Positions 9,846 through 19,474 of a stretch of 57,633 bases of DNA are shown here, piece by piece; the stretch's first letter is position 1; every line of letters begins with the position of its first letter. Below the pieces are notes generated by a model that searched no databases, was not told the DNA's origin, and was given only the letters and a program-made list of their open reading frames with translations. The position numbers were made by a program, and so were the translations under genes. Source of the DNA: an uncultured Clostridia bacterium (GTDB lineage Bacteria > Bacillota > Clostridia > Oscillospirales > Ruminococcaceae). Where the stretch lies: the NCBI GenBank assembly GCA_947625155.1, contig CANQNG010000010.1, positions 1 to 57,633 of the forward strand, in the 5' to 3' direction.

Positions 9846-11783
9846 ATGGCAAAACTGACAGTTTCAAAGTCTGCTGGCTTCTGCTTCGGCGTGGACCGGG
9901 CAGTGCAGATGGTCTACAAGGCGCTGGAGGAGGGCAAGCCTGTGGCGACATTGGGACCGATCATCCACAATACAGACGTGGTCAATGACATGATCTCACG
10001 GGGCGCACGGATCATTGACGATGTGTCCGAGCTGCGGGAAGGGGAATATGTGGTCATCCGTTCCCATGGCGTGGGCAGAAAGATCTACGAGGAGATCGCT
10101 AAGCGGGGGAATCCGGTCATCGATGCGACCTGTCCGTTCGTGGCAAGGATCCACAAGATCGCCGCTGAACAGACGGAGCAGGGACGCTTTATCCTGATCG
10201 CCGGTGATGAGGATCACCCGGAGGTGCAGGGGATAGTTGGACATTGTGACGAAAATTGCTTTGTTTTCCGAGATGAATTTGTGCTAAAAAACTTTTTTGA
10301 AAAAAATTCAGAAAAAAAGCTTGCAATTATTTCGCAAACCACTTATAATAATATAATATGGGAGAAGTGTTTGAAGGTTCTTCCTAAGGATCATCCGAAT
10401 ATTGTTGTATATGACACGATCTGTACTGCGACCGAGCAGCGTCAGAGCGACACAGCGGCGTTGGCGGCAGCATCCGATCTGATGATCGTGATCGGCGGAC
10501 GGCACAGTTCCAATACCGTGAAGCTGTACGACATCTGCAAGAGCTATTGCAGGGCATATCATATTGAGAATGCGGACGAGCTTGACACTTTAGACCTGAC
10601 CAATGCCGATAAAATAGGCATTACGGCTGGTGCTTCCACACCGGCTCATATAATTAAGGAGGTTGTTACGACTATGGAAGAAATTCTGAATAGGGAAGGC
10701 AATGAGGAGGAGATCGATTTTGCGCAGGCGATCGAGGAGACCTTCAAGAAATTACATACGGGAGCAAGGGTCAAGGGTACTGTCATGGCTGTCAACAACA
10801 GTGAAGTTATCGTAGATCTGGGCGCAAAGCAGACAGGTACCGTTCCGGCATCTGAGCTGACCAACGACCCGTCCAAAAAGCCTGCCGATCTGGTCTCTGT
10901 CGGCGATGAGATCGACCTGATCGTCATCAAAGTGAGCGATCAGGACGGCATGGCTACGCTCTCCAAGAAGCGTGTGGACGAGCAGGCAGGCGTGGAGAAA
11001 GTCACAGAAGCCAAGGAGAACGGCACGGTACTGGAGGGTACTGTCAGCGGCATCGTCAAGGGCGGTGTGAATGTATACTATGAGGGCGTGCGTGTGTTCA
11101 TCCCGGCTTCCCAGACAGGTATGCCGAAGGATACGGAGCTGGATGTGCTGAAGGGACAGACAGTCCGCTTCATCATCATCGAGGCACCGGAACGCAGAAA
11201 GAGCGCTGTCGGCTCTATCAAGGCAGTTGCCCGCAAAGAAAAGGAAGCTGCCAAGGCAAAGTTCTGGGAAACTGCCGAGATCGGCAAGGAGTACGAGGGC
11301 GAGGTCAAGTCCCTGACCAGCTATGGTGCATTCGTGGATCTGGGCGGCATTGACGGCATGGTACACATTTCCGAGCTGTCTTGGAATCGCATCAAGCACC
11401 CGAATCAGGTCGTATCTGTCGGCGATATGCTGAAAGTCTATATCAAGGATCTGGACAAGGAGCACGACCGCATTTCTCTGGGTTACAAGAGAGCAGAGGA
11501 CAACCCGTGGGAGAAATTCCTTGCTAACTATGAAGTCGGCGACATCGTAGATGCCAAGATCGTGTCCATTACCAGCTTCGGTGCATTCGCACAGATCATC
11601 GAGGGCGTGGATGGCTTGATCCACATTTCCCAGCTGGCTGACCGCCGTGTGGAGAATGTCCGTGATGTGGTATCCGTAGGCGATGAGGTACGGGTGAAGA
11701 TCACCAACATCGACACCGAGAGCAAGCGTATCTCCCTTTCTATGCGTGAAGTCATCGAGGACGAAGGCGAGGACGAGGAATAA
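9846..11783 (+). CDS. ispH: Bifunctional IspH (HMBPP reductase) - ribosomal protein S1 fusion
   Basis: This 645-residue fusion joins the last enzyme of the MEP isoprenoid pathway, IspH (residues about 1-276), to ribosomal protein S1 (about 277-645). The IspH half keeps the three Fe-S cysteines (GFCFGV, DATCPFV, DTICTAT) and the HPEVQG motif. The S1 half carries four S1 RNA-binding repeats, recognisable by repeated KGTVMAV, EGTVSGIVKGG, EGEVKSLTSYGAFVDLGG and SITSFGAFAQI. The fusion is known in many Clostridia. Bases about 10240-10400 within the IspH part are strikingly AT-rich, with a promoter-like site. A strong internal ribosome site precedes an in-frame ATG exactly at the domain junction. 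The gene ends in tandem terminators. Confidence 0.95.
   Translation: MAKLTVSKSAGFCFGVDRAVQMVYKALEEGKPVATLGPIIHNTDVVNDMISRGARIIDDVSELREGEYVVIRSHGVGRKIYEEIAKRGNPVIDATCPFVARIHKIAAEQTEQGRFILIAGDEDHPEVQGIVGHCDENCFVFRDEFVLKNFFEKNSEKKLAIISQTTYNNIIWEKCLKVLPKDHPNIVVYDTICTATEQRQSDTAALAAASDLMIVIGGRHSSNTVKLYDICKSYCRAYHIENADELDTLDLTNADKIGITAGASTPAHIIKEVVTTMEEILNREGNEEEIDFAQAIEETFKKLHTGARVKGTVMAVNNSEVIVDLGAKQTGTVPASELTNDPSKKPADLVSVGDEIDLIVIKVSDQDGMATLSKKRVDEQAGVEKVTEAKENGTVLEGTVSGIVKGGVNVYYEGVRVFIPASQTGMPKDTELDVLKGQTVRFIIIEAPERRKSAVGSIKAVARKEKEAAKAKFWETAEIGKEYEGEVKSLTSYGAFVDLGGIDGMVHISELSWNRIKHPNQVVSVGDMLKVYIKDLDKEHDRISLGYKRAEDNPWEKFLANYEVGDIVDAKIVSITSFGAFAQIIEGVDGLIHISQLADRRVENVRDVVSVGDEVRVKITNIDTESKRISLSMREVIEDEGEDEE
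10321..10349 (+). promoter_or_regulatory. Possible internal promoter inside ispH
   Basis: TTGCAA (10321-10326) and TATAAT (10344-10349), 17 bases apart, lie within the ispH coding region in an AT-rich patch that contrasts with its GC-rich surroundings. A transcript from here would encode only the S1 half. Confidence 0.45.
10656..10676 (+). promoter_or_regulatory. rpsA: Internal ribosome binding site and start for free S1
   Basis: AAGGAGG (10656-10662) precedes an ATG at 10674 by 11 bases. That ATG is in the fusion frame at codon 277. The resulting protein would start MEEILNREGNEEE and contain all four S1 repeats (369 residues), similar to free clostridial S1. The Shine-Dalgarno is as strong as those of the real genes around it. 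Confidence 0.6.
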
Positions 11784-11798
11784 GCTATCGTTTAAGAT

Positions 11799-11858
11799 GC
11801 GCTCCCCTTTTCAGGGGAGCGCTTTTTGTATGATCATCCGATCATACACTACTTTTTT
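11799..11858 (+). terminator. Tandem terminators after ispH-rpsA
   Basis: The first hairpin is GCGCTCCCC (11799-11807) with GGGGAGCGC (11814-11822), followed by TTTTT. The second is GTATGATC (11828-11835) with GATCATAC (11840-11847), followed after five bases by TTTTTT. The second dyad could alternatively be an operator for the operon that follows. Confidence 0.8.
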
Positions 11859-11888: not shown

Positions 11889-11918
11889 TTGTCACTGCCC
11901 TGCCGTTTGTGTTATAAT
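11889..11918 (+). promoter_or_regulatory. Promoter of the MoxR-VWA-SWIM operon
   Basis: TTGTCA (11889-11894) and TATAAT (11913-11918) are separated by 18 bases. It is the only clear promoter before the five tightly packed genes 11999-19474. Confidence 0.7.
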
Positions 11919-11998: not shown

Positions 11999-13108
11999 AT
12001 GGAACAGGATCTTATCAAGCCCCCTGTGGAACTGCGCTATGCAGAGGAGCTGTCTGCGCTGAAGGCTGCGGATACCGGGCGCAGACCGGAGAACTGGAAA
12101 CTTTCTCCAAAGGCAGTCCGCACCTTTATCCTCGGCGGTACGGTGACACTGCCGGACGGACAAAAGCGGGATATTTCCCGGAAATTCTACGGCAACGATG
12201 CCCTTGTGGAGCGCTGTATCATCACCCTTGCCGGCAACCGGGGGCTGATGCTCGTCGGTGAGCCGGGCACAGCAAAGACCATGCTTTCGGAGCTGCTGTC
12301 TGCTGCCATTTGCGGCAGGAGTACCAACACCGTACAGGGCACTGCCGGCACAACGGAGGACATGATCAAATATAGCTGGAACTATGCGCTTTTGCTCTCG
12401 AAAGGTCCCTGCCGGGAGGCACTCGTGCCTGCGCCGCTGCTCATCGGCATGGAGGAGGGGATCTTTGCACGCTTTGAGGAAATTACCCGTACCCCTGCGG
12501 AAATTCAGGACAGCCTGATCTCCGTCATGAGCGACCAGATCCTGAACATTCCGGAACTGGGGGATGCGGGGCTTGTTTTCGCACGTCCGGGGTTCAACAT
12601 CATCGGCACAGCCAACACAAGGGACAAGGGTGTCAACGAAATGTCCGGTGCGCTGAAGCGGCGTTTCAACTTTGAGACAGTATCTCCCGTGCGGGATGTG
12701 AAGCTCGAAAAGGAGATCATCCTCCGGGAAGCCAATGATCTTGCCAAGGCAGGACACATCGACTGCCCGATAGACCGGGACGTTGCCGAACTGCTCGCCG
12801 TGACCTATCATGAACTGCGGGAGGGACAGAGCGCCGAGGGGACTAAGGTCGAGAAGCCCGCAGCCGTCATGAGTACGGCAGAGGCAGTTTCTGTCTATTT
12901 CCAGACACTTTGCCATGCATGGTATTATGGGAACGGCACTATGGAACTGCCTGTGCTGACAGAAAACCTGCTGGGTGCTGTCTGCAAGGAAAACCGTGAT
13001 GACCTCGAGCGCCTGCGATCCTATTTCAACACAGCCGTCAAGCAGAAAAGCACCCGGGAGGGCGGGATATGGGAAGCCTATTTCAAGACAGCAGCATACC
13101 TGAAATAA
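11999..13108 (+). CDS. MoxR-family AAA+ ATPase (YehL-like)
   Basis: This 369-residue AAA+ ATPase belongs to the MoxR group, whose members partner with VWA-domain proteins as remodelling chaperones. Walker A is GEPGTAKTM near residue 86. The Walker B/sensor region reads EEITRTPAEIQDSLIS near residue 160, and sensor 1 GTANTRDKG near 203. The best-known relative by gene order is E. coli YehL. The ATG at 11999 has GGGAGG with a good spacer and its own promoter. Its stop (TAA at 13106) overlaps a downstream ATG, so the next gene is coupled. It is the motor of the system, by family inference. Confidence 0.88.
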   Translation: MEQDLIKPPVELRYAEELSALKAADTGRRPENWKLSPKAVRTFILGGTVTLPDGQKRDISRKFYGNDALVERCIITLAGNRGLMLVGEPGTAKTMLSELLSAAICGRSTNTVQGTAGTTEDMIKYSWNYALLLSKGPCREALVPAPLLIGMEEGIFARFEEITRTPAEIQDSLISVMSDQILNIPELGDAGLVFARPGFNIIGTANTRDKGVNEMSGALKRRFNFETVSPVRDVKLEKEIILREANDLAKAGHIDCPIDRDVAELLAVTYHELREGQSAEGTKVEKPAAVMSTAEAVSVYFQTLCHAWYYGNGTMELPVLTENLLGAVCKENRDDLERLRSYFNTAVKQKSTREGGIWEAYFKTAAYLK

Positions 13109-15459
13109 TGCCGGATCCGCCGGAGGGCGTGCGTTTTTTTCCGGTGCGGCATCACAGCCCGGTCTGTGCGTATCAGCTCCGGAACTATGTACGTGGGTAC
13201 CAGCCGGAACTGATCCTGATCGAGGGCCCGGAAAATGCCAATGACCTGATCCCGGTGTTGACGGATGAACATACCACGCTCCCGGCGGCGATCTATTACT
13301 TCTACAAGGACAAGAAGCAGTATGTCAGCGAGGAGGCGGAGGACTATCACTGCTATTACCCGTTTCTGTACAGCTCCCCGGAGTATGCTGCCATGGACGA
13401 AGCCAAACGGCTGGGCATCCCGGCAAGATTCATCGATCTGCCCTATAGCGAGATCTTGATCCATACCAGTGAGTCTGCCGGACTGCGCCGGGAGCAGGAA
13501 CGCCACAGCTATGCGGATGACAGCCATTTGGTGCAGAGCCGTTTCTACCAGAAGATCTGCGAAAAGACGGGGCTGCGGAACTTTGAGGAATTCTGGGAGA
13601 AATATTTTGAGATCGCCGGGCTGCGCCTGACTCCGGAAGCTTTTCTGCGGCAGATGTTCACCTACTGCACTTTGACACGGGAGAGCATACCGCCTGAACA
13701 AATGGAGCAGGACGGCACGAATGCCCGTGAGCAGCACATGGCATACCGCATCCGGGAGGCAATGCAGCAATATAAAAGGATACTGGTCGTGACGGGTGGA
13801 TCGCATTCGGGAGCGCTCGCACGGCTGGTGCGAACAGCGGTAAAGCCGATCCGCCTGCACAAATTCTCGGAGGGGCAGGAGGGCTGCTACCCGATCGCCT
13901 ATTCCTATGAAGCCGCAGATGCCCTGAACGGCTATGCATCCGGCATGCAGCATCCGGGCTTTTATGACAAGGTGACACAGGCACTTGCCGATGCAGAAAC
14001 ATCGGAAGGCATCTACGCAGCCTGCTGCCTTGATCTGCTGACGAAGACCGCAAAGGCAAGCGCCAAAAAGGATATTCCCGTTTCGATCTCGGACATCACT
14101 GCCGCATGGTCGCTGGCGGAGGGGCTTGCGGCATTGCGGGGCAGTGCTGAGCCGGGCTTTGCGGAAGTCTGGGACGGTGTGACGGGCGCACTGATCAAGG
14201 GCGAAAAGACCGTTGCCGCCGCCGTGCCGTTGGAGCTGCTCATCCAATTGGGCGCAGGTGAGGGGATCGGGCATATCGGTGACACAAAGCATGTGCCGCC
14301 GCTGATACAGGATCTCATACAGACCTGTGCCGTCCTGCGCCTGAAAGCGGATACTGCCGTACCGCAGGAGACAGAGATCTCCCTGTTCACTGGGGAAAAG
14401 GAACTCGCCAAGAGCCATTTTCTGCACCGGATGGTATTTCTGGGTACGGGCTTCTGTAAACGGAAGAAAGGACCGGATCTGCATGCCGGCAAGGACAGGA
14501 GCCGTGTGCGGGAGGTCTGGAGCTATTGCCGCAGTCCGCAGGTCGATGCGGTGCTGGTCGAACGGACGACGGACGGAGCGACCATTGCAGAAGCCTGCCG
14601 GAGCATCGCTGCCAAGCGTATCCGGCAGGAGCGCCGCTGTGCTATTGCAGCAGGTGTGTGCGTGGACTGCTTTCTCATGGGGATCGCACTGACGGGCGAA
14701 GATGTAACGGTCATGGAAGAAATTCTGGCAGGCGACGGAGATCTCTTTTCGCTGGGGAAGGGCTTGCAGTATTTTGACATGCTCCATGAACTGCGGCAGC
14801 TTTACCGGGCTGAGGATCCGTCTTTGCTGCGGTATATCACGCAATGCTTTCAGGCGCTGTTGATACAGCTCCCGTCTATGGCGCAGTGTCCGGCAGAGCA
14901 GGCGCAGGACTGCATCCGCATTTGCCGTCTGTTGTATGGGATCACCGGGCGGCTGCTGACGGACAGGCGGGCGGAATTCCGGGAGGCGCTGATCTCCCTG
15001 ACAGAACGCCCGGACAAAGAACCGTCCGTGTTCGGGGCAGCGATGGGCTTGCTGTATGCCATGGATGCTGCCTGTCTGCAACAGGCAGAAGCAGCGATGC
15101 AGGGCTACCTGATGGGGTCGCAGGAGATGCGCAAGCAGGGGGCATTGTACCTGAAAGGCTTGTTTGAGACGGCAAGGGACATCGTACTGGGAGAGAGCCG
15201 GTTCTTGGAGATGACGGATGCACTGCTGAGTGGGATGGATCATGCAGATCTCATGGAGATCCTGCCGTCTATGCGGTTGGCATTCAGCTATTTCACACCG
15301 TCTGAAACACAGCAGATCGCCGAAGCAGTATCTGCGCTGCACGGCGGGAAAGCGGATCAGGTGCTGCATGAGGCGGCACTGGATGAGCTGCTCTGTGCTT
15401 TCGGGGCTGAACTGGATGCGGAGATCTTCCGGGAAATGCGGGCGAACGGAGGGAACTGA
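13069..15459 (+). CDS. DUF5682 family protein (YehM-like)
   Basis: This 796-residue protein of unknown biochemical function matches the DUF5682 pattern. The N-terminal VRHHSPVCA (about residues 25-33) is followed by LILIEGPENA and by YYPFLYSSPEYAA. VVTGGSHSGAL (about residue 242) adds a second conserved His/Ser cluster. The N-terminal domain's strand-EGP pattern recalls TraB/ChaN/erythromycin-esterase-like hydrolases, which is speculation. The C-terminal half is helical with Cys/Leu-rich repeats. The chosen start at 13069 has GGAGGG 5 to 6 bases upstream and overlaps the ATPase gene by 40 bases; an ATG at 13108 in a TAATG overlap is the alternative. Such proteins occur with MoxR, VWA and SWIM genes. 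Confidence 0.8.
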   Translation: MGSLFQDSSIPEIMPDPPEGVRFFPVRHHSPVCAYQLRNYVRGYQPELILIEGPENANDLIPVLTDEHTTLPAAIYYFYKDKKQYVSEEAEDYHCYYPFLYSSPEYAAMDEAKRLGIPARFIDLPYSEILIHTSESAGLRREQERHSYADDSHLVQSRFYQKICEKTGLRNFEEFWEKYFEIAGLRLTPEAFLRQMFTYCTLTRESIPPEQMEQDGTNAREQHMAYRIREAMQQYKRILVVTGGSHSGALARLVRTAVKPIRLHKFSEGQEGCYPIAYSYEAADALNGYASGMQHPGFYDKVTQALADAETSEGIYAACCLDLLTKTAKASAKKDIPVSISDITAAWSLAEGLAALRGSAEPGFAEVWDGVTGALIKGEKTVAAAVPLELLIQLGAGEGIGHIGDTKHVPPLIQDLIQTCAVLRLKADTAVPQETEISLFTGEKELAKSHFLHRMVFLGTGFCKRKKGPDLHAGKDRSRVREVWSYCRSPQVDAVLVERTTDGATIAEACRSIAAKRIRQERRCAIAAGVCVDCFLMGIALTGEDVTVMEEILAGDGDLFSLGKGLQYFDMLHELRQLYRAEDPSLLRYITQCFQALLIQLPSMAQCPAEQAQDCIRICRLLYGITGRLLTDRRAEFREALISLTERPDKEPSVFGAAMGLLYAMDAACLQQAEAAMQGYLMGSQEMRKQGALYLKGLFETARDIVLGESRFLEMTDALLSGMDHADLMEILPSMRLAFSYFTPSETQQIAEAVSALHGGKADQVLHEAALDELLCAFGAELDAEIFREMRANGGN

Positions 15460-15461
15460 GC

Positions 15462-16367
15462 ATGGAACTGGGATACACCTGTCCGGCACGGGAACAGGCA
15501 AAAGCGGCGCTCCGGGCTGCTTATGCGGCGTATAGAGACGTTTATGATGTGCCTATCGAGCAGTGCGTTTATGAGAATCTGAGTCATTACTACCGGAAGT
15601 CGCTTTACCCGGATGCGGAGCAGATCCATACCCTGACCACGCTCTTTCACCTGATCGGAACGGATCATGCGGCAAAGGCAAGGCTTGCCTGTTTTGTAGA
15701 GGAAGATATGGTGCGGACACAGTGCCATCTGCAGGCTGCTGCCAAATGCCATGCGATGTCCTATGCCATGTACCTGACACAGCGTCAGCCGCCCACGCAG
15801 GAAATTGCGGCAGGCTATGCAGCAAGCGGGTACTTTGAACTGCTCGAATACCGGCTGGTCGCAGCAGGAGAGGAAAAGGTGGCAGCGGCACTTGCCAGAA
15901 GCTCGAAGCTGTATGGTCTGCTCTTTGCCGGGGATGTGGAGCGGTTCGGGCAGCTGCTCCGGGCAATACCGGAAGATCCTGCAAAGCCGTCCTATCATAT
16001 CAGCGTGACAAAGCCGATCTATGAAGCCATGCTAAAACGGGATACTGCGGCATTTCAGGAGCGTATCGGGGAGCGGATCCGGAACTACCGGGCGCTGTCT
16101 GCTGACCAGCAGCCTGTTGTAGATGTGGTGACGATCGCACTTTGCAAGTTGGCACAGCGGTTCGGGATCCGGTACTATCCTGCTGTTGCTGAAGTGCCGG
16201 AGGTCTTTCTGACACAGGAAGCCCCGCACCGCCCGGACTGCCGCATTCCCGACCCTGACCACTGCGAACAGGTGTTCCGCTTATGGGGAGACCAGATGCC
16301 GGGGCTTACAGAGATACGGCAGAAGCTTTACTTAATGGACAAGAACGGGAGGTATCCGGCGTGGTGA
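15462..16367 (+). CDS. Helical protein of unknown function in the MoxR-VWA operon
   Basis: This is a 301-residue soluble, almost entirely alpha-helical protein. I do not recognise a confident family. The central part (about residues 170-250, with PIYEAMLKRDTAAFQERI and later ALCKLAQRFGI) has the rhythm of Imm49-like or TPR-like helical repeats, which is only a visual impression. It starts 2 bases after the DUF5682 gene with GGAGGG, and its stop overlaps the VWA start. It is an additional component compared with the four-gene E. coli yehLMPQ set, so it may be the lineage-specific adaptor, effector or immunity part. Confidence 0.75.
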   Translation: MELGYTCPAREQAKAALRAAYAAYRDVYDVPIEQCVYENLSHYYRKSLYPDAEQIHTLTTLFHLIGTDHAAKARLACFVEEDMVRTQCHLQAAAKCHAMSYAMYLTQRQPPTQEIAAGYAASGYFELLEYRLVAAGEEKVAAALARSSKLYGLLFAGDVERFGQLLRAIPEDPAKPSYHISVTKPIYEAMLKRDTAAFQERIGERIRNYRALSADQQPVVDVVTIALCKLAQRFGIRYYPAVAEVPEVFLTQEAPHRPDCRIPDPDHCEQVFRLWGDQMPGLTEIRQKLYLMDKNGRYPAW

Positions 16368-17491
16368 CAGAGGAACAGATCCTGAACCGCTGGCGGCTGG
16401 TGCTTGGCAAACAGGCAGAAACATCCATTGATTTCAGCGGAGGGGAAGAGATACAGACCCTCTCGGACATGGAGGAGCTGCTGGAATATCTGTATGGCAG
16501 GGCAGGCGGCGAGGATGTCCGTGAGGAAGGGCGCTCCGGCGGACGGGGACCGTCCCGTTTACAGGCGGTGGAATGGATCACCAAAGTGCGTGAGCTGTTT
16601 CCCCGGCAGACTGCCGAAGTGCTGGAAAAGCATGCACTGGAGGAGTTCCACATGACGGAGCTGCTCACGGACAAGAGCATGCTGGAAAAGATCACGCCGG
16701 ATATGGATCTGCTGAAGACCATTCTCCAGCTCAAGCACCTGATGAAAGGCGAAGTGCTGGAGACGGCGAAGAGGATCGCCGCACAGGTGGCGGAGAAACT
16801 GCGGAAGAAACTGGAAAACAGCGTGCGGCGTTCCATTCTGGGGCGCATCGACCGGAACACATCCAGCCCCTTGCATTCCGCAAGAGATCTGGACATCCGA
16901 AAGACCATCCGCCGCAACCTGAAGCACTACGACCCCGAAACACAGCAGCTGATCTTACAGGACGTGTATTTCAGCGGCCGTGTGAAACGATACAGCACAT
17001 GGCGTTTCATCATTGCCATTGACGAAAGCGGTTCGATGTTGGGGTCGGTGATCTATTCGGCGGTCATGGCGCAGATCTTAGCGAAACTGCCCTTTGCGGA
17101 CGTGAAGCTGATCATTTTTGACACGAACGTGGTCGATCTCTCCGGGGAGACGGAAGATCCTGCGGAGATACTCATGAGCGTGCAGCTTGGCGGCGGCACG
17201 GACATCGGAAAGGCGCTCGCCTATTGCGAGGGCTTGGTAGAGACCCCTGCCAAGACCTGCATCCTATGCGTGACCGACCTCTACGAGGGCGGTGCGGAGT
17301 CCCGGCTGCTGAACACATGCCGCAACATTCTGGAAAGCGGTGCGAAGCTCAATTTCCTCACCGCACTGGACGAAGCCGCTGCCCCTGCCTATGACCGTCG
17401 GTTAGGGCAAAAATTAGCGGACATGGGGGCATTTGTGGGGGCACTCACACCGGATCAGCTCGGAGACTATATCGGGCGTATGTTCGGGTAA
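16361..17491 (+). CDS. VWA-domain protein (YehP-like)
   Basis: This protein of about 376 residues has a C-terminal von Willebrand factor A domain. The metal-ion-dependent adhesion site is complete: IAIDESGSM (DxSxS), GGGTDIGKA (the Thr) and CVTDLYEGG (the distal Asp). VWA proteins of this kind bind MoxR ATPases as substrate adaptors. The N-terminal 200 residues are helical and basic. The GTG at 16361 is chosen because GGGAGG ends 8 bases upstream; a GTG at 16364 in a GTGA overlap is equally possible. An ATG at 16283 would give an extra 26 residues deep inside the previous gene and lacks a ribosome site. Relative by order: E. coli YehP. Confidence 0.85.
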   Translation: MVTEEQILNRWRLVLGKQAETSIDFSGGEEIQTLSDMEELLEYLYGRAGGEDVREEGRSGGRGPSRLQAVEWITKVRELFPRQTAEVLEKHALEEFHMTELLTDKSMLEKITPDMDLLKTILQLKHLMKGEVLETAKRIAAQVAEKLRKKLENSVRRSILGRIDRNTSSPLHSARDLDIRKTIRRNLKHYDPETQQLILQDVYFSGRVKRYSTWRFIIAIDESGSMLGSVIYSAVMAQILAKLPFADVKLIIFDTNVVDLSGETEDPAEILMSVQLGGGTDIGKALAYCEGLVETPAKTCILCVTDLYEGGAESRLLNTCRNILESGAKLNFLTALDEAAAPAYDRRLGQKLADMGAFVGALTPDQLGDYIGRMFG

Positions 17492-17500
17492 GGAGGGCGT

Positions 17501-19474
17501 ATGGAAAAATGGCTGAATGCGCTTGCCGCTGCCGATGAAGCGTACCTGATCGGCATGTCCAACAAGGGCATTTACAAGCGTGCCTGTAAGGATGCACAGG
17601 AGGCAGAAGCATCCGTGACCTATGCGGCAGACTGTGCGGCAGTGAGCATCGGGGGAGAGGTCTGCCAGATCAGAGATCCGCTGTGGGAGAGCAGCTGTTC
17701 CTGTCCGTCCCGGAGCGTCTGCCGTCACCTGATCGCTGCCATGCTCTGGCTGAAAGATCACAGCGAAGAACAGCCCTCTGCCGATGCACCGGAGGAGAGT
17801 TTCCCGGAGACACTGCGGAACGCCTTGACAGCATTCCCGGCGGAGAAGCTGAAAAGCATCTTCTCCGGGAAATGGCGGACACTTGTCGGACAGCTTTCCG
17901 AGATCCGTCTCGAGGAGGGGAGCGTGCTGGCAGGCACACTGCCGGACGGAACGGCAGTGCGCTTGCTGTACCCGCTGGAGGGTTCTTCCTGTTCGTGTCA
18001 TAAAAAGGACATCTGTCCGCACAAGGCTGCGGTCATTGCGGCGTGGCAGGTCAAAGAGGGCTTGCTTTCCCCGGGAGCGCTCCAGCCGGAACAAAAAGCG
18101 CTCCCGGCGGCGGAAGCAGACCGCATCCGGGAGAGTGCTGCCCGCAGCTATGCGCTGCTCTGCGAGGTGCTGCATTGGGGTCTGGTGCGCCTGCCGGAGA
18201 ACATTGCTGACCACATGGAAGTTGCAGCCGTGCAGAGCCATGCCCTGAAAATGGCAGATGCGGAACGGGCGCTCCGGGACATTGGCAGCCGTCTTTCCGA
18301 CAGCCGCAGCCGGCGGGCAGTGTTCCGGAACGAGATGTTCCTGCGGAAACTGTGCAGCACTGCCCGGATGCTGGAACGTTTGCAGGATACGGAGATCACA
18401 GAAACACAGCTAGGAGAATTCCGGCAGAGTTATAGTGACTATCCGGGTGATCTGCATCTCCTGCCGCTCGGACTGCGGGAAGTGCAGGGGGAATATGAGG
18501 GACGGGTGTACTATTTTCTGGATCTCGATGAAACGGCAGAACGGCGGTTCTACACGCTGTCCGACATTCGCCCGGCATTCTACGAGGGTGTGAAGCAGAA
18601 ACGGCGGGCAACGATGGTCTGGGATCTCAATGTGCCGCTGCGGTCGCTGATGCGTTCCCGTCTGGTGCTGCGGGGGGCAAAGGTCAATGGCGGAAAGCTT
18701 TCTGCTTCGCAGGAGACAAGGCTTGTCAGTCAAACAGAGGCAAACTTGGACTGCACACAGGTGCGGGAGCTGCTGCATACGGATCTCCGGGAGCTGGCGG
18801 TGTGGCTTTCGGAGCAGGGGGAGCTGGAGACGGACAGGCTCTGTCTGGTGCATCCGGCAGCCTGTACGGGGTGTCAGTTTGACACGCACACACAGCAGCT
18901 GGAAATAAAACTGCTTGACCATGCGGGAGATCGTATTGCCATCCGGGTGCGCTACCGGGCGGAGACAAAGAAACTGATCAGCCAGCTCGAAGGCATTGCC
19001 CGAAAGATGCTCGAACACCCCGAAAAGGACTATGTATGGCTGTGTACGGCACAGTTTGAGGGGGGCAAGCTGACCCTGTTCCCGATCGATATGTATGACT
19101 TCATCCACACCCCCGAACCGCAGCCCTACACGCTCCCTACAGAGTTCTGCCGCCGGGAAAACCGCTATGCGCCGGAAATTCTCCAGTTCTTAGACGAGGT
19201 GGAGAACAGTCTGTGCGCTCTGCTGCAAAGCGGTGTGGAGAACGGTGCGGACAAGCAGCTTGCCGGATCTGCGGAACGGTTTGGTATGCACGGACTTGCC
19301 GGGCTGCTGCGTACACTCTTCGACGAGACAGAACGGTTCCGGCATTCGACAGACAGCGGGCTGACGGCAGTGATGCAAGCAATGACCGCCGTGCAGCATT
19401 ACACGGCGGTCGGTCGGAAAAAATTGGAACTGATCTGTGCGCTGCAAGCCATGTCAGACGGCAGCATGCTCTAA
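17501..19474 (+). CDS. SWIM zinc-finger protein (YehQ-like)
   Basis: This 657-residue protein has two SWIM-type zinc-binding motifs: CSCPSRSVCRH near residues 66-76 and CSCHKKDICPH near residues 164-174, both fitting CxC-Xn-CxH. SWIM domains are usually DNA- or protein-binding. The remainder is a mixed alpha/beta region with no motif I recognise. It starts 9 bases after the VWA gene with AAGGAGGG and ends the operon. It overlaps the convergent sugar-kinase gene by 21 bases with no terminator between. Relative by order and domain: E. coli YehQ. Confidence 0.85.
   Translation: MEKWLNALAAADEAYLIGMSNKGIYKRACKDAQEAEASVTYAADCAAVSIGGEVCQIRDPLWESSCSCPSRSVCRHLIAAMLWLKDHSEEQPSADAPEESFPETLRNALTAFPAEKLKSIFSGKWRTLVGQLSEIRLEEGSVLAGTLPDGTAVRLLYPLEGSSCSCHKKDICPHKAAVIAAWQVKEGLLSPGALQPEQKALPAAEADRIRESAARSYALLCEVLHWGLVRLPENIADHMEVAAVQSHALKMADAERALRDIGSRLSDSRSRRAVFRNEMFLRKLCSTARMLERLQDTEITETQLGEFRQSYSDYPGDLHLLPLGLREVQGEYEGRVYYFLDLDETAERRFYTLSDIRPAFYEGVKQKRRATMVWDLNVPLRSLMRSRLVLRGAKVNGGKLSASQETRLVSQTEANLDCTQVRELLHTDLRELAVWLSEQGELETDRLCLVHPAACTGCQFDTHTQQLEIKLLDHAGDRIAIRVRYRAETKKLISQLEGIARKMLEHPEKDYVWLCTAQFEGGKLTLFPIDMYDFIHTPEPQPYTLPTEFCRRENRYAPEILQFLDEVENSLCALLQSGVENGADKQLAGSAERFGMHGLAGLLRTLFDETERFRHSTDSGLTAVMQAMTAVQHYTAVGRKKLELICALQAMSDGSML

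Follow-up and report, generated by a model that had tools for sequence, protein, structure and literature searches.

What do the five tightly coupled genes at positions 11999-19474 of the window encode, and in which cellular process do their products act? The window is the whole stretch of DNA analysed here, 57,633 nucleotides of contig CANQNG010000010.1 from an uncultured Clostridia bacterium whose assembly (GCA_947625155.1) comprises 1.96 Mb in 38 contigs. Four of the five genes belong to a family of gene sets typified by yehL, yehM, yehP and yehQ, which occurs in most E. coli genomes and is widespread elsewhere. We found no paper assigning the yehLMPQ-type unit a function, in a literature search from which subscription journals were largely absent. 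We tentatively propose that the operon encodes most of a DNA-damage-linked remodelling machine of the MoxR AAA+/VWA class and yehLMPQ type, equipped with a putative hydrolase. Three handles make the family testable: a DUF4132 partner protein, links to damage-type promoters and a predicted hydrolase-like site in the DUF5682 protein. If the proposal is true, the bacterial DNA-damage response includes a large complex that has so far gone uncharacterised.

All five genes lie on the + strand. The first (11999-13108, 369 residues) encodes an AAA+ ATPase of the MoxR class and YehL type (Pfam AAA_5, 2.1e-31), and the second (13069-15459, 796 residues) a DUF5682 protein of the YehM type (Pfam DUF5682, 6.9e-102). 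These are followed by a gene for a lineage-specific, accessory orphan protein (15462-16367, 301 residues), a gene for a VWA protein of the CoxE/YehP type with a complete metal ion-dependent adhesion site (MIDAS; 16364-17491, 375 residues; VWA_CoxE, 2.1e-41), and a gene for a SWIM zinc-finger protein of the YehQ type with two CxC..CxH motifs (17501-19474, 657 residues; SWIM, 8.2e-7, in two stretches). A reading-frame check agreed with the preliminary description of this DNA on the tight coupling of the genes. The AAA and DUF5682 frames overlap by 40 bases, with a DUF5682 start that is similar in most of the aligned congener homologues; the DUF5682 and orphan genes are 2 bases apart, the GTG of the VWA gene at 16364 lies within the stop of the orphan gene, and 9 bases separate the VWA and SWIM genes. 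The operon also ends against a convergent gene, as had been stated: an open reading frame on the other side ends at 19454 and overlaps the end of the SWIM gene by 21 bases. NCBIfam profiles gave no useful name for the five proteins.

The proposed correspondence to YehL, YehM, YehP and YehQ was right. Compared with an E. coli locus (L013), the window proteins score 323 bits for AAA, 294 for VWA, 134 for DUF5682 and a weak 17 for SWIM. The window and E. coli have the same four families in the same order, on one strand in the window. They differ in the orphan gene, which the window has between DUF5682 and VWA, and in the place of DUF4132: in the window's genome it is on another contig, while DUF4132 genes (yehI and others) adjoin the E. 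coli unit upstream. The assignment to the MoxR-VWA class likewise held, by the AAA_5 and VWA_CoxE matches and by key residues kept across 54 aligned loci including the window. Walker A (GEPGTAKT), the FEE of the Walker B region, KRR, and the tested asparagine and arginines of the AAA protein are each conserved at 1.0, as are the D, S, S, T and D of the VWA MIDAS. The window thus bears intact Walker A, FEE, arginine and MIDAS residues of a MoxR AAA+ protein with a VWA partner, and this MIDAS is complete, as the preliminary description had it. In the SWIM protein, the C, C, C and H of the first motif are conserved at 1.0 and the second motif at 0.41. Between the window and its relative L042, the ratio of nonsynonymous to synonymous substitution rates (dN/dS) is 0.05-0.22 across the five operon genes. 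YehL is listed as a MoxR subfamily (PMC3893208; PMC11432383), a likeness that consists in an AAA+ protein with a VWA partner; the available text of these papers gives no YehL function and does not describe the partners found here.

The usual fifth partner of this quartet is a DUF4132 protein of about 1100 residues, not the orphan. Relatives were collected from named genomes by means of a DUF5682 alignment; the best 80 of 223 were kept, a set that leans to Ruminococcus. The nearest named relatives were uncultured Clostridia and Ruminococcus. AAA, DUF5682, VWA, SWIM and DUF4132 are all together in 61 of these best 80 loci; 49 of the 80 show the order AAA-DUF5682-VWA-SWIM-DUF4132 and 8 the order VWA-SWIM-DUF4132-AAA-DUF5682, as judged by gene content and order and not by the strand or intactness of each locus. 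The other 19 include some cut at contig ends and some with DUF4132 elsewhere. DUF4132 is the family of E. coli yehI, which adjoins yehL; all three E. coli strains examined have one to three DUF4132 genes beside yehL, and two of those scanned carry WGR. While the yehLMPQ-type unit usually has DUF4132 adjacent, the window is a split variant: its genome has an intact DUF4132 gene on another contig (L122:10447-13800, G000:C3), alone between unrelated genes. DUF4132 is likewise apart from the quartet in four other genomes (G036, G037, G025 and G023). Because of this separate location the gene was hidden from the preliminary description, which overlooked both the DUF4132 partner and the lineage restriction of the orphan gene.

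The two partners are also associated across the genus. Among its 38 genomes, our own included, DUF5682 is present in 24 and DUF4132 in 22; DUF4132 never occurs without DUF5682, and DUF5682 occurs without DUF4132 in two (G003 and G028). This co-occurrence has a Fisher p of 1.2e-8, uncorrected for relatedness and with many genomes incomplete. Of 14 control genomes, two (E. coli and Deinobacterium chartae) have DUF5682, and only the former has DUF4132 as well, so beyond the genus DUF5682 can be present where DUF4132 is not. Over 54 full-length loci, where the window and L042 enter with the DUF4132 gene from its separate place, pairwise protein distances show correlations of 0.78-0.97 among the five families, and none of 500 permutations reaches any of these values. 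Mean divergence is lowest in AAA (0.23) and VWA (0.34), intermediate in DUF5682 (0.48) and highest in DUF4132 (0.63) and SWIM (0.64). This pattern suggests a conserved engine that may be combined with faster-changing recognition parts.

Conversely, the orphan is an accessory gene outside the constant unit. It was found in 2 of the 38 genus genomes, the window's own and one other, between which its dN/dS of 0.19 indicates purifying selection. In the phylum, 7 of 398 genomes gave matches at E ≤ 0.01, all of them besides the window partial and at E 7e-4 or weaker; three weak matches read with their neighbours showed nothing related, and no relative was found in viral contigs. That the genes travel as a unit, which the preliminary description had proposed to test, is thus upheld for AAA, DUF5682, VWA and SWIM by the 61 loci and the correlated distances, and fails for the third gene. 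The likeness of the orphan protein to Imm49 immunity proteins stays under the threshold, at 14.4 bits (E 0.029) against a Pfam cut-off of 30.1. The slot of the orphan gene can hold leucine-rich repeat (LRR) genes in other congeners.

Structure models and fold comparison predict that the DUF5682 protein consists of an N-terminal domain with an EreA/ChaN-like fold, followed by a helical repeat arm. The whole model had no Foldseek match under 0.001 and the sequence profile no solved relative (best E 0.12), unlike the N-terminal domain, whose fold was resolved when it was compared alone, at 5-14% identity to solved structures. Residues H28, E52, D123 and H246 are invariant in 15 diverse DUF5682 proteins. 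Comparable histidine and glutamate residues are catalytic in EreC-like enzymes, and not every member of the superfamily is an enzyme. The DUF5682 domain shares the predicted fold and the histidine-glutamate-histidine residues with the EreA/ChaN-like superfamily, and differs from it in carrying a repeat arm and in its association with an AAA+/VWA operon. Based on the models, we regard DUF5682 as a putative hydrolase with a histidine-glutamate-histidine site.

The proposed link to DNA damage is regulatory. A comparison of upstream regions revealed TTGAACATCTGNNATGCTATAAT before the AAA gene in some congeners and before DUF4132 in others. Allowing at most two mismatches, the motif TTGAACATCTGNNATGCTATA has 48 sites in 16 of the 38 genus genomes, and its reversed control has none. 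The sites precede LRR genes (16), DUF4132 (7), ligA (6), recA (4), AAA (3) and sbcD (2), with the LigA, SbcD and RecA identities checked on examples; of the remainder, 5 are unassigned, and 3 and 2 precede members of two unnamed families, in one case with the family member as the second frame. The AAA and DUF4132 sites were partly the starting point of the discovery, while the repair genes were not sought beforehand. With a relaxed pattern, the motif was found before AAA in G014 and before recA in 11 of 15 genomes, a set picked mostly for having the motif and in which recA was called by position against a recA table. Overall, 11 of the 24 genomes of the genus that have DUF5682 bear the motif at the quartet operon, at DUF4132 or at both. 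Four of the 16 motif-bearing LRR genes stand in a same-strand run into AAA (G001, G012, G016 and G026), and in G012 one further LRR gene precedes the motif. The two small unnamed families that carry the recA/ligA/sbcD motif (L150, L151 and L188; L161 and L183) had no Pfam match in the pieces tested.

The window operon itself has a sigma-70-like promoter, TTGTCA-18-TATAAT with a TG before the -10, at 11889-11918 on the + strand. It matches at 11 of 12 positions and is the single strong site, in agreement with the one promoter of the preliminary description; since the scan yielded 4 sites against 3.1 expected by chance, its position and quality count, not the number. A promoter common to this operon and the split DUF4132 gene was also considered. 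Both have TTGYCA and a TGTGTTATAAT-like part at a different spacing, which we do not claim as a regulatory motif. A further upstream element was found in loci with VWA first: palindromes like GAAYAAATRTTC lie 37-89 bases upstream in 9 of 9 such loci (L060, L061, L063, L064, L065, L067, L073, L099 and L120), compared to 3 of 64 AAA-first positions. The nine loci are closely related to one another, and the palindrome is possibly a candidate repressor site.

The unit is not confined to the genus: its relatives extend over Bacillota, Bacteroidota, Pseudomonadota, Deinococcota and Fusobacteriota, five phyla at the least. The DUF4132-containing unit is on plasmid records of Iodobacter and Sinorhizobium. 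A second form, in the order SWIM-DUF5691-AAA-DUF5682-VWA, was found on those of Deinococcus taeanensis (L252) and Rhizobium, and Fusobacterium and two other clostridia fit it by gene order and size; the 600-residue proteins of these two clostridia (L038 and L039) had no Pfam match. In Methylosinus, whose gene table has gaps, no VWA is annotated after DUF5682, and in Hymenobacter SWIM is not annotated as a gene of its own. The D. taeanensis locus has AAA, DUF5682, VWA and SWIM in one run, as in the window, but DUF5691 replaces DUF4132 and the SWIM protein is shorter. Weak DUF5682 matches were seen in two further clostridia (G281 and G259).

Independent links to damage regulators come from Deinococcus and E. 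coli. The D. taeanensis locus contains a single radiation-type palindrome in 19.4 kb, located 19 bases upstream of the first gene of this second-form operon and with one mismatch; it gives three overlapping matches against a shuffle mean of 0.38, and three were reached in 1 of 200 shuffles. Such a palindrome is also upstream of Deide_18730-18690 in D. deserti, where a radiation motif is described before a five-gene operon that includes a MoxR ATPase and a VWA protein (PMC2669436, available text). By its gene numbers we infer that this operon fits the second form, its MoxR and VWA members being the only ones named in that text. In D. radiodurans, according to the available part of the report, mitomycin C raises both DRA0166 (DUF4132) and DR2173 (WGR) in an IrrE-dependent manner (PMC8533742). 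In E. coli, the DUF4132 region opens with a gene that has a LexA-like box, CTGGATAAAATTACAG, at positions -25 to -10; this holds for all three strains examined. A scan of eleven gene starts for LexA and radiation boxes, whose radiation pattern was too strict (R was taken as a plain letter), located the E. coli box upstream of yehF and, in L148, upstream of the first DUF4132 gene, and gave a weak distant match in L252. We take molR to be the E. coli gene of the DUF4132 region, on the basis of a paper linking MolR to WGR (PMC8533742). Excerpts of three papers place molR on lists of LexA-regulated genes (PMC11039860, PMC4576408, PMC3978071). MoxR1, MoxR2 and a VWA protein are among the proteins lowered without PafBC in a mycobacterium (PMC5656591), which we do not use as support because these may not be of the YehL kind.

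The DNA-damage reading thus has links in three lineages with different regulators, and several observations weigh against it. The evidence is all regulatory, and it is absent in the window. The window promoter lacks the motif, the best repair-site matrix score upstream is -12.3, and the recA and ligA genes of the window genome sit inside other operons. Since the motif is absent in the window lineage, we do not claim damage induction there. No motif was seen at the quartet or DUF4132 in 13 of the 24 DUF5682 genomes, including the window's own and G034 (whose recA does bear it). The relaxed pattern was applied to only 13 of the 24, and some contigs break off at these places. Measured against the 16-position palindrome we applied, the E. 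coli box has 4 mismatches, no such boxes were found before the first genes in Iodobacter, Sinorhizobium, Rhizobium and Fusobacterium, and Methylosinus and Hymenobacter had weak distant matches only. The E. coli and D. radiodurans links concern DUF4132 and not the quartet. D. radiodurans is without the five-gene operon of D. deserti, whose authors class it among motif-bearing genes lacking an obvious relation to DNA repair (both from the available text of PMC2669436). DUF4132 being present in D. radiodurans without that operon, the DUF4132 data are weaker for the quartet.

On the DNA-damage reading, the AAA+ protein would form an ATP-driven ring, which the MIDAS-bearing VWA protein would couple to a client. 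The SWIM and DUF4132 proteins, proposed for client recognition as they are the fastest-evolving parts, may act on nucleic acid, and the DUF5682 protein would supply the putative histidine-glutamate-histidine hydrolase and the repeat arm. In the window genome, the DUF4132 protein from the other contig would complete the machine in trans. Across the family, such a machine could be deployed in the DNA-damage response, probably remodelling or clearing damaged or stalled complexes. Gene content, co-occurrence, co-evolution, conserved residues, the motifs in congeners and one Deinococcus palindrome are observed, as is the prediction of the fold, whereas formation of a complex, hydrolase activity, the client and the direction of the effect are what we infer from them.

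BspA-type LRR genes with a common C-terminal tail lie between the core genes in several congeners. In G016 (C50:126855-151262; L054, L132), 22 tail-bearing genes in 24 kb are interleaved with the quartet, and the genome has 43 tail matches; G001 has 13 such genes in 19 kb and 32 matches in the genome. We rejected this family as a defining partner: its members are found away from the operon too, and some genomes have them but no DUF5682 (G020, for example, has 21 matches). It is an associate of the unit, not a part of it. A bolder version of the proposal, which we consider improbable, is a damage-triggered, adaptor-programmed machine, in which a core of AAA+, VWA, SWIM and DUF4132 would load adaptor-chosen clients onto the DUF5682 hydrolase and dismantle damaged, stalled or foreign complexes. 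The LRR-tail proteins in congeners and the orphan protein in the window would be its exchangeable adaptors. If true, this would be a bacterial damage response with the logic of receptor-directed proteolysis. LRR genes also occur near the split DUF4132 gene in G023 and G022 (L127:1176-5597; L128), another hint of a link between LRR and DUF4132. One Leptospira protein combines LRR, WGR and DUF4132 (PMC11674859, in the part available).

The preliminary description noted that MoxR-VWA systems have been proposed as NTP-dependent conflict or chaperone modules. As regards conflict, there is no defence profile match, most E. coli genomes carry the genes and regulation points to DNA damage; conflict, stress-chaperone and metal-insertion readings are all less supported than the DNA-damage reading. 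In an anti-phage or anti-element system, the MoxR-VWA pair would set a threshold, LRR or other variable proteins would be sensors, and the DUF5682 hydrolase or the SWIM protein the effector. MoxR-VWA conflict systems do exist, and in the available text of Kaur et al. 2020 (PMC7159879) the ternary ones resemble the window in combining MoxR, VWA and further proteins. None of the five window proteins corresponds to their third components (VMAP, iSTAND, FtsH or beta-propeller), and a bpMoxR match of 22 bits stays below its cut-off of 27. PADLOC 2023 profiles gave no match of note to the five proteins, only three weak ones (best E 0.016) to unrelated or unnamed models. The LRR arrays between core genes would fit variable sensors, but the same family is not tied to the operon or to the presence of DUF5682 in a genome. 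The distribution of DUF5682 within the class is patchy: counting our own, 3 of 292 genomes exceed the cut-off and 5 have E ≤ 0.001. Relatives occur on 31 of 72,556 plasmid records (several chromosome-sized), and a type I restriction gene set follows the Iodobacter plasmid copy. In E. coli, on the other hand, a 4-kb query of yehL, yehM and the start of yehP is at least 80% covered in 5165 of 5426 genomes, at one or two places each (median one), so the yeh genes are not island-like there. No relative of the operon was found in viral contigs, and the single match in a phage record (L259, MT835988.1) was set aside as probably mislabelled, its AAA, DUF5682 and VWA frames lying amid ordinary-looking bacterial genes. 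A damage-type promoter would suit a phage response too, and on balance we judge a conflict function unlikely, if well short of implausible.

A general stress chaperone of the RavA-ViaA kind, with no special link to DNA, is in our view unlikely and ranks after the conflict system. The plain sigma-70-type promoter of the window would suit it, and respiratory complexes are interaction partners of MoxR-VWA pairs such as RavA-ViaA (PMC3893208, available text). Against it stand the promoter motif shared with recA, ligA and sbcD and, in Deinococcus and E. coli, the links to damage regulators. Insertion of a metal or cofactor, as by CoxD/CoxE or NorQ/NorD, appears the least probable of these rivals. 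To our knowledge, SWIM, DUF4132 and DUF5682 proteins are not components of CoxDE or NorQD systems. The window VWA protein does belong to the CoxE family, and one named structure close to the DUF5682 fold is that of heme-binding ChaN. NorQD acts on its partner as a remodeller that allows metal insertion (PMC13036017), and E. coli molR is reported as required for molybdate use, in both cases going by partial text. No metalloenzyme gene was recurrent in the neighbourhoods, which were read by eye and without a systematic test, and molybdenum-cofactor synthesis (PF06463) was found in none of the 38 genus genomes, compared to 11 of 14 controls. If the DNA-damage reading is true, the molybdate label attached to E. 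coli molR does not fit its relatives in this genus.

Some minor observations concern E. coli and the flank of the operon. In E. coli EC0900 (L148:14001-17368), yehL is annotated as frameshifted and yehM has an internal stop, which points to decay in some strains. E. coli yehQ is among the mutated genes of butanol-tolerant strains (PMC6442406, available part). In the window, a terminator-like hairpin at 11799-11822 on the + strand (10 pairs, 8 of them G-C, with a T-rich tail) sets the upstream gene apart from the operon; the region has 8 such sites against 6.5 expected by chance. That gene, a frame of 645 residues at 9846-11783, resembles by eye what we take to be IspH fused to ribosomal protein S1 domains. 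IspH-S1 fusions occur in other clostridia.

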